From contig JACAEX010000090.1 in the NCBI GenBank assembly GCA_013388635.1, positions 1-34,145 on the forward strand: DNA of 34,145 nt. Reading direction: 5' to 3'. Position numbers and translations under genes: made by a program. The notes under the pieces are model-generated. The model ran no database searches. It worked only from the letters and a program-made list of their open reading frames with translations, and was not told where the DNA came from. The stretch is from Syntrophaceae bacterium. Lineage in GTDB: Bacteria; Desulfobacterota; BSN033; UBA1163. Shown here one piece after another: positions 32,383-34,145 of the stretch. Numbering within the stretch: the stretch's first letter is position 1; each line of letters begins with the position of its first letter.

Positions 32383-32667
32383 GTGCCTACATTGATACAG
32401 ATGGTTGAAAAGGAGCTCAACATTTCTAAAAAACAGCTGATAGAGAAGGGTGTCAAGCATTTTTTGGAAGTTGAATTGAGAAGCTTATCTATTGAAATAG
32501 GGAAAATTTCTAGCCGGTATGGGGTAAACTTTTTTAATGAGTTATGGGAAAGACTCGAAGCCGGAAAGATAACGGAATCAGAATGTTTCGATGATTTAAG
32601 CAAGCTTGAATATCTTGAATTGGAAAGGAAAAAGGTTGTTAAACTATTACAGAGGGCTGCACAATAA
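32383..32667 (+). CDS. Small partner (putative antitoxin) of the TumE-like gene
   Basis: A 94-residue, mostly helical, charged protein that I do not recognise by name. It starts at GTG 32383, with gagggg seven bases upstream. Its stop overlaps the ATG of the next gene by one base (TAATG), so the two are translationally coupled, as is usual for toxin-antitoxin pairs with antitoxin first. No clear helix-turn-helix is evident; residues 5-30 could form a short DNA-binding helix pair. The antitoxin role is inferred only from position and size. Base composition is lower in GC than the upstream housekeeping genes. Confidence 0.6.
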   Translation: MPTLIQMVEKELNISKKQLIEKGVKHFLEVELRSLSIEIGKISSRYGVNFFNELWERLEAGKITESECFDDLSKLEYLELERKKVVKLLQRAAQ

Positions 32668-33046
32668 TGCCCCCAAGGGATAAGATATATTCACAGCTGG
32701 CGCAGGTCGCTCTAAGCGATTTTGCAGATATTGTAGAAGACACAAGAATAATTGAGGGAAAGTTAAGAATTTTACTCAATGATGAAAGTTTCGTTGACAT
32801 CTGGCTTTCGGCCAAGAAAGATGGGGTCTACGCCTATCACTGGAAAGAAGAAATGTTGATGGGAGGATATTTAGATACAACAATCTCCCTGATAAAGAAG
32901 CTAAGAGGCTTCAGACTTATCCAAAACACTTTCATGATGGAACTGAGAAGAATGTAATAGAAAGCGATTTGAGTGATAACCCTGAAGAGGCTTTAAGAAT
33001 TATATTAGAGTTTGCCAGGAAAATTATCCAGCATATCGGAAAGTAA
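32667..33046 (+). pseudogene. TumE-like toxin gene broken by a one-base frameshift
   Basis: The first 64 codons (to about 32858) read through GKLRILLNDESFVDIWLS and YAYHWKEEML, a TumE/DUF6516-like pattern. In that frame the protein then drifts into unrelated sequence and stops at 32957. From 32858 the -1 frame continues the family pattern instead: DGRIFRYNN, then TYPKHFHDGTEKNVIES and EEALRIILEFARKI, ending at TAA 33044-33046. Joining the two gives a 126-residue protein of plausible full length. The best explanation is loss of one base near TTGAT (32856-32860), either a real mutation or an assembly error. The conserved tail shows the break is recent. The antitoxin-like partner is intact. Confidence 0.7.
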
Positions 33047-33207: not shown

Positions 33208-33267
33208 TTGACAACATAAAAGAAGTTGATATAATGGTCTAGTGGGGATAACCCCATAAGGGGATAA
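33208..33267 (+). promoter_or_regulatory. Near-consensus promoter with repeated GGGGATAA
   Basis: TTGACA (33208-33213) and TATAAT (33230-33235) are both perfect consensus, 16 bases apart. At and after the expected start are ggggataa (33244-33251 and 33260-33267) and the palindrome tgggg-ataa-cccca (33243-33256), a likely operator. aaggagg (33267-33273) is the ribosome site of the next gene. Confidence 0.7.
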
Positions 33268-33278
33268 AGGAGGCCAGA

Positions 33279-33512
33279 ATGGTTAAGATTAAACCCATGG
33301 AAAAAATTGTTATGAGGCAAGTACGAGGTTCTTTAGAAGCTTTCCTGGATGGCAAAAAGAATTTAAATTGGATTAAGGGAACAATAGAGAAGTCAGGAGT
33401 ATTGTATTATCAGGGTATGCTTAAAGATGTATTTGACGGATTAAGAAGGTATAATACATTATCGCGATATAAAGAGATTTTAGAAGAATGTAAAAAAGAC
33501 GGATGGCTTTAA
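33279..33512 (+). CDS. 77-residue orphan protein
   Basis: I do not recognise this protein. It is basic and helical, with no signal peptide and no membrane segment. It is clearly a real gene by context: a consensus promoter, operator-like repeats, and aaggagg spaced 5 bases from ATG 33279. Its stop is followed in the same frame by the nuclease-like reading frame, which stays open to the window edge. It could be a small partner of that nuclease, such as an antitoxin, a specificity subunit, or a controller protein of a restriction system. The region is AT-rich compared with the housekeeping genes, which suggests transfer. Confidence 0.65.
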   Translation: MVKIKPMEKIVMRQVRGSLEAFLDGKKNLNWIKGTIEKSGVLYYQGMLKDVFDGLRRYNTLSRYKEILEECKKDGWL

Positions 33513-33629
33513 GATGACACTTTTAATAAGGGAATTCTGAGGCTTAAAAAGCAGAATACTTCTCCCAAAGTGGGGCACACAATTAATGATATTACTTACT
33601 TAATTTTAGTGAATTATGTTGGTGAAGTT

Positions 33630-34145
33630 ATGAATAAAATCCAAAAGGTGCAGAAAAATCAGGAAAGCTTTACAGAAGATGTAGTTACTTACTTCCTTTA
33701 CAGGGAAATCCGTGATAGGAAAAGTAAGGTTTTTTTTAAAATAAAACATAACATCTCGATAGACCCTCCCAGAAATTGGTATTATTGTTGTGGACCTGAT
33801 ATAGACGTATTAGAGGTTATGCATAATGAAGCAATAGTAGGTTATGAGATAAAAGGGATGAGAAAATATAAAGGAGGATATGAAGCCCAAGGGTGGTATG
33901 AAGGGCTGGATGAAGCACTTGCATATTTAGTGCTCCCACATATAGTGCAAAATAAAGAAGGTCTTTTTGATGGGGGCGTATTTGATCATATCTATTTGGT
34001 CCAAGGAAGACAAGAGGAATATATTGGGGGTAGTGTACAATTTGTGTGTCAGGGGGGATACTCAGATGTGGACAGGGCGGAGAAAGTGGATTGTAGGGCC
34101 AATAGGGAGGTCAGTTTTAAATGGCTAAAGCCTCTTTGTCCTAAA
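33630..34145 (+). CDS. PD-(D/E)XK nuclease-like protein, 3' end beyond the window
   Basis: The frame is open for 172 codons from ATG 33630 to the edge with no stop, so the gene is incomplete. Residues about 51-75 read GPDIDVLEV then VGYEIKG: the Asp and the Glu-x-Lys match the PD-(D/E)XK active site of restriction and repair nucleases, followed by a helix containing Gln (YEAQGWYEGLDEAL), also typical. The start is uncertain: ATG 33630 has ggtga four bases upstream, while GTG 33570 and 33609 are in frame further up, and the frame stays open back to the previous gene's stop at 33510-33512. Restriction enzyme, defence nuclease or Holliday resolvase-like roles are possible. Confidence 0.6.
   Translation, partial: MNKIQKVQKNQESFTEDVVTYFLYREIRDRKSKVFFKIKHNISIDPPRNWYYCCGPDIDVLEVMHNEAIVGYEIKGMRKYKGGYEAQGWYEGLDEALAYLVLPHIVQNKEGLFDGGVFDHIYLVQGRQEEYIGGSVQFVCQGGYSDVDRAEKVDCRANREVSFKWLKPLCPK

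Follow-up and report, generated by a model that had tools for sequence, protein, structure and literature searches.

A candidate PD-(D/E)XK nuclease gene in an AT-rich accessory cassette of a Syntrophaceae bacterium is split by an IS256-family insertion sequence

The core layout of the PD-(D/E)XK nucleases has been described, and new families of this superfamily usually escape standard sequence searches (PMC1913061); for insertion sequences (IS) of the IS256 family, target duplications of 8 bp have been described (PMC7780238). The stretch of DNA analysed here (34 145 nucleotides, referred to as the window) makes up the whole of contig C33 from the draft genome of a Syntrophaceae bacterium (3.42 Mb, 106 contigs), and at its right edge a first-pass annotation had proposed a two-gene nuclease system, comprising a 77-residue orphan gene followed by a gene with a PD-(D/E)XK active-site pattern that reached the final base, 34145. 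The features under study sit at a contig edge, and the cause of the contig end was therefore the first question to be answered. Within the window the second gene in fact runs only to base 34028, the last 117 bases of the window being the left end of a multicopy insertion sequence, and consequently the last 39 residues of its open reading frame (ORF) are transposon sequence. An IS256-family element has inserted into this gene, duplicating 8 bp and disrupting the nuclease candidate in this assembly; we hold the anatomy and the disruption, taken together, with high confidence. The features concerned are collected in Table 1.

Table 1. Positions of features at the right edge of the window
Feature	Position	Strand	Remarks
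Candidate PD-(D/E)XK nuclease gene, 5' part	33570..34028	+	Codon-position GC 0.51/0.26/0.31, pattern as on C42
GPDIDV, candidate motif II	33792..33809	+	Same frame as YEIKG
YEIKG, candidate motif III (E-x-K)	33843..33857	+	Same frame as GPDIDV
Target-site duplication ATATTGGG, 8 bp	34021..34028	.	Repeated at C42:118-125
IS256-family (PF00872) insertion sequence, left end	34029..34145	+	Multicopy; cut by contig end
77-residue orphan gene	33279..33512	+	ORF; predicted four-helix protein
Sigma-70-type promoter (putative)	33208..33235	+	TTGACA-16-TATAAT, TG ahead of second hexamer; function inferred
Two direct GGGGATAA repeats, 5' leader	33244..33267	+	Copies at 33244 and 33260
Antitoxin-like ORF and frameshifted partner ORF	32383..33046	+	AT-rich block shared with 77-residue and split genes

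The genome contains 14 further copies of the terminal 117–118 bases of the window, at 96–100 % identity, nearly all of them at contig ends. A pattern search of the genome found 14 left ends starting GGTAGTGTACAAT(T/C)TGTGTGTC, and 18 right ends represent the opposite end of the element. When the flanks of all ends were compared, 8 of the 14 left ends each shared an identical 8-bp duplication with one right end only, and three further left ends seem, by inspection, to pair over 9 bp. The window flank, ATATTGGG, has a sole matching right end, which lies on contig C42. This pairing is independently supported by the genes miaB, phoU and pit on C42, which follow surE–fbp in relatives: there the gene order is pheT-hup-merR-surE-fbp-miaB-phoU-pit (names assigned by sequence resemblance), and here it is divided between the two contigs, with the genes as far as fbp in the window and the remainder on C42. 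The empty site was reconstructed by joining the two flanks in a script, the split gene being searched as two separate pieces, and across it the reading frame stays open from the window into 79 more codons on C42. The codon-position GC pattern is alike in the two halves, at about 0.51/0.28/0.30. Translation probably starts at the ATG at 33630, which has a weak GGTGA ahead of it, the GTG at 33570 being the first in-frame ATG, GTG or TTG; the intact product would be roughly 210–230 residues long. Since the candidate active site and the last 79 codons now lie on opposite sides of the insertion, the split gene is probably inactive in this assembly.

Judged by its transposase, the element at the end of the window is a member of the IS256 family. 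The transposase was identified from a related complete copy in the genome of a relative (G001, L047), 81 % identical in DNA over 273 bases and encoding a 467-residue frame that matches Transposase_mut (PF00872, E 6.5e-75), together with two 3' transposase fragments in the genome studied here, where no complete copy is assembled. In the copy from the relative, an open transposase frame extends from the extreme left end of the element. Through its 14 left and 18 right ends the element interrupts many contigs of the present genome.

As the first-pass annotation had it, GPDIDV and YEIKG lie in one frame, and the motif II aspartate is followed by the motif III (D/E)-x-K in the order expected of the PD-(D/E)XK superfamily. 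A strict form of the pattern (D-x-D-hydrophobic ... E-x-K), chosen after it had been sighted in this gene, is found in one of the 89 open frames of the window, in none of the 366 open frames drawn from C42 and from loci in related genomes, and in 0.035 % of shuffled versions of this ORF. Visual inspection and a model of low confidence suggest a secondary structure in the order first-helix Glu, strands, GPDIDV, YEIKG, helix YEGLDEALAYL, strand DHIYLV and then, on C42, GVIIAT, a predicted order that fits the restriction-endonuclease core (PMC1913061). From these motifs and their arrangement, we judge PD-(D/E)XK nuclease activity of the product to be an evenly balanced prospect. Several observations weigh against our reading of a disrupted nuclease gene. 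A nuclease assignment finds no support in any Pfam, NCBIfam, PHROG or PADLOC family, there is no credible match among PDB sequences, and the single-sequence AlphaFold model (predicted local distance difference test score, pLDDT, 33.7) is unusable, which makes Foldseek comparison with that model meaningless. A degenerate DNA pattern for DID...YE(I/L)KG matched 87 stretches in 84,980 genomes; among the 80 listed no relative could be detected, and many clearly belong to other proteins. Moreover, the genome is a draft and may derive from cells of which only some carry the insertion. Profile similarity to the superfamily, a supporting rather than a defining trait, was likewise not found for the product; its best PADLOC match, LmuC (E about 0.03), and matches to Sushi and Mrx7 in Pfam were taken as chance. 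The PD-(D/E)XK pattern of the first-pass annotation thus stands as a motif that is rare among open frames in its strict form, but it gained no match to a family, a PDB sequence or another genome.

The split gene may instead encode an orphan protein of another fold, without nuclease function, in which GPDIDV and YEIKG occur by coincidence. We place this possibility a little short of an even chance: the motif pair is present in many unrelated proteins, the loose pattern occurs in about 28 % of open frames and no profile lends support, whereas the strict motif is rare and the order of elements fits the published core. It is also conceivable that a truncated yet active nuclease, fused to transposon-encoded residues, is still expressed, given that the frame runs without a stop into the insertion sequence in the window and that the candidate motifs precede the insertion. 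We consider this highly improbable, as 79 native codons are missing, likely with a core strand among them, and in the single longer copy of the element (on C48) this frame runs for 87 codons of the element before a stop and lies outside the transposase frame.

A different alternative, a functional two-gene module for defence or restriction with the nuclease controlled in its expression or activity by the 77-residue protein, draws on the region ahead of the split gene. The 77-residue ORF, with AAGGAGG just upstream as ribosome site, the perfect-hexamer promoter and the leader repeats of the first-pass annotation were all recovered. The promoter matches the consensus at 12 of 12 positions and is the sole perfect promoter-like site of the region, where such sites generally occur at chance frequency (6 observed vs 5.6 expected). 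The GGGGATAA repeats may act as an operator; comparable short two-copy repeats occur twice more within the same 879 bases, and the leader sequence GGGGATAACCCC can also fold as a GGGG/CCCC hairpin (leader RNA stability z = -2.3; 2 of 200 shuffles equally stable). For the 77-residue protein, a single-sequence AlphaFold model has four helices (pLDDT 76.6, predicted template-modelling score 0.60) and no match below E 0.9 to PDB or viral structures in Foldseek, and no family was matched at E up to 1, helix-turn-helix and antitoxin families included; a role as controller or antitoxin, although possible, gains no support. No relative of this protein or of the split-gene fragment was detected in 99 related genomes, 72,556 plasmids or 50,697 phages, and for the fragment a 395-genome sample of the phylum, partly overlapping the 99, was equally negative. 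Matches of the two in the 99 relatives (E 0.007–0.09) are short or weak, several with stops. Two weak plasmid matches were rejected, one being antisense to an annotated gene and the other passing through a stop and beginning in a transposase-like frame. Back-translated searches of genome and viral contigs, which would reveal close relatives only, gave no match, and the DID...YE(I/L)KG pattern gave nothing in viral contigs. The first-pass annotation had named co-occurrence of the pair in other genomes among the checks of its proposal; within the genomes, plasmids and phages searched, the pair was found nowhere else. A strong promoter and repeats ahead of the 77-residue gene, and the position of both genes on one strand in an AT-rich block, speak for the two-gene module, but we regard it as very unlikely: the second gene is interrupted by the insertion sequence, a gap of 57–117 bp separates it from the first, it lacks a strong ribosome site, the 77-residue protein belongs to no regulator or antitoxin family and the pair does not recur. 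Nor is an intact system of two genes what the joined locus holds, for a third small gene follows.

The joined locus places these genes in a cassette of roughly 2.6 kb which, from fbp to miaB, comprises an antitoxin-like ORF, its frameshifted partner, the 77-residue gene, the split gene and a Cys-rich gene. The last, on C42, has 100 codons with several Cys-x-x-Cys pairs, overlaps the end of the split gene and precedes miaB; nothing resembling its product was found in 23 genomes of the class. In relatives the fbp–miaB interval is 65–409 bp, or contains fructose-bisphosphatase- and aldolase-like genes (named by eye, not by family search), and the cassette genes were not found there. Because this neighbourhood is conserved in relatives without the cassette genes, and because GC content is low (0.32–0.40 for the fbp–miaB block vs 0.50 for the window; 0.33–0.39 vs about 0.50 for the features of the first-pass annotation), the cassette is, on sequence grounds, an AT-rich accessory insertion, in agreement with the AT-rich accessory DNA seen by the first-pass annotation, and the gene cluster at the window edge is probably borrowed. 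The broken toxin pair noted alongside was also borne out: the antitoxin-like ORF has a weak YdcD-family match (E 0.00085, far below the family cut-off), and the toxin-like ORF after it, which we take to resemble TumE-type toxins, is frameshifted, its continuation YPKHFHDGTEKNVIESDLSDNPEEALRIILEFARKI lying in another frame. A 35-base stretch at 33046-33080 matches another place in the genome (C37:28254-28288) at 91 % and is probably a decayed repeat. Rfam gave no RNA in the region. In another relative (G010; L193 6612-6761), fbp between surE and miaB seems to retain just the first 21 and last 50 codons, through an internal deletion.

Our working model is that a small AT-rich cassette came to lie between fbp and miaB on the chromosome and would have encoded a helical protein of 77 residues, a PD-(D/E)XK-like protein of roughly 210–230 residues and a Cys-rich protein of 100 residues. 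The intact cassette, whose genes we infer to be co-transcribed, would have been read from the promoter at 33208-33235 to give three small proteins, one of them probably DNA-cutting. An IS256-family element then landed in the nuclease gene, between its candidate active site and the last 79 codons. For the most part this is ordinary IS inactivation of an orphan accessory gene. A role of the cassette against foreign DNA is possible, although we think it doubtful. It is tempting to speculate that the cassette, when intact, formed a three-gene nuclease system not yet described (a four-helix protein, a PD-(D/E)XK-like nuclease representing a new family and a zinc-ribbon-like Cys-rich protein), inactivated here by the transposon and with intact copies in unsampled organisms, but this we consider unlikely; should an intact homologous cassette exist, it could represent a new nuclease family. 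From the joined locus emerges a precise and testable picture of how a cassette was acquired and then inactivated, together with the native gene ends with which intact relatives can be sought. The locus also carries a lesson: a gene at a contig edge can finish in a transposon, as does the nuclease candidate, whose apparent C-terminus is not native.

Comparison with described systems places the locus as follows. In type II toxin–antitoxin systems a gene pair would be expected to recur in other genomes, and neither the 77-residue gene nor the nuclease candidate was found elsewhere. The C-protein operons of restriction-modification systems resemble the cassette in having a small promoter-proximal gene with leader repeats ahead of a possible nuclease; here, however, the repeats lie downstream of the -10 hexamer, the small protein is a four-helix model without a match and belongs to no helix-turn-helix family at E up to 1, and the cassette has no DNA methyltransferase, there being no suitably sized ORF from fbp to miaB across both contigs. 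The split gene differs from the PD-(D/E)XK superfamily in lacking a profile or structural match, in falling into no described family tested and in being interrupted; it is like the superfamily in its Asp in a predicted strand, its E-x-K in the next, its Glu in the preceding helix and the polar helix that follows. Finally, the insertion sequence differs from the IS256 family in having no assembled complete copy in this genome, and agrees with it in transposase family, in imperfect terminal inverted repeats, in target duplications of 8–9 bp and in its multicopy state.
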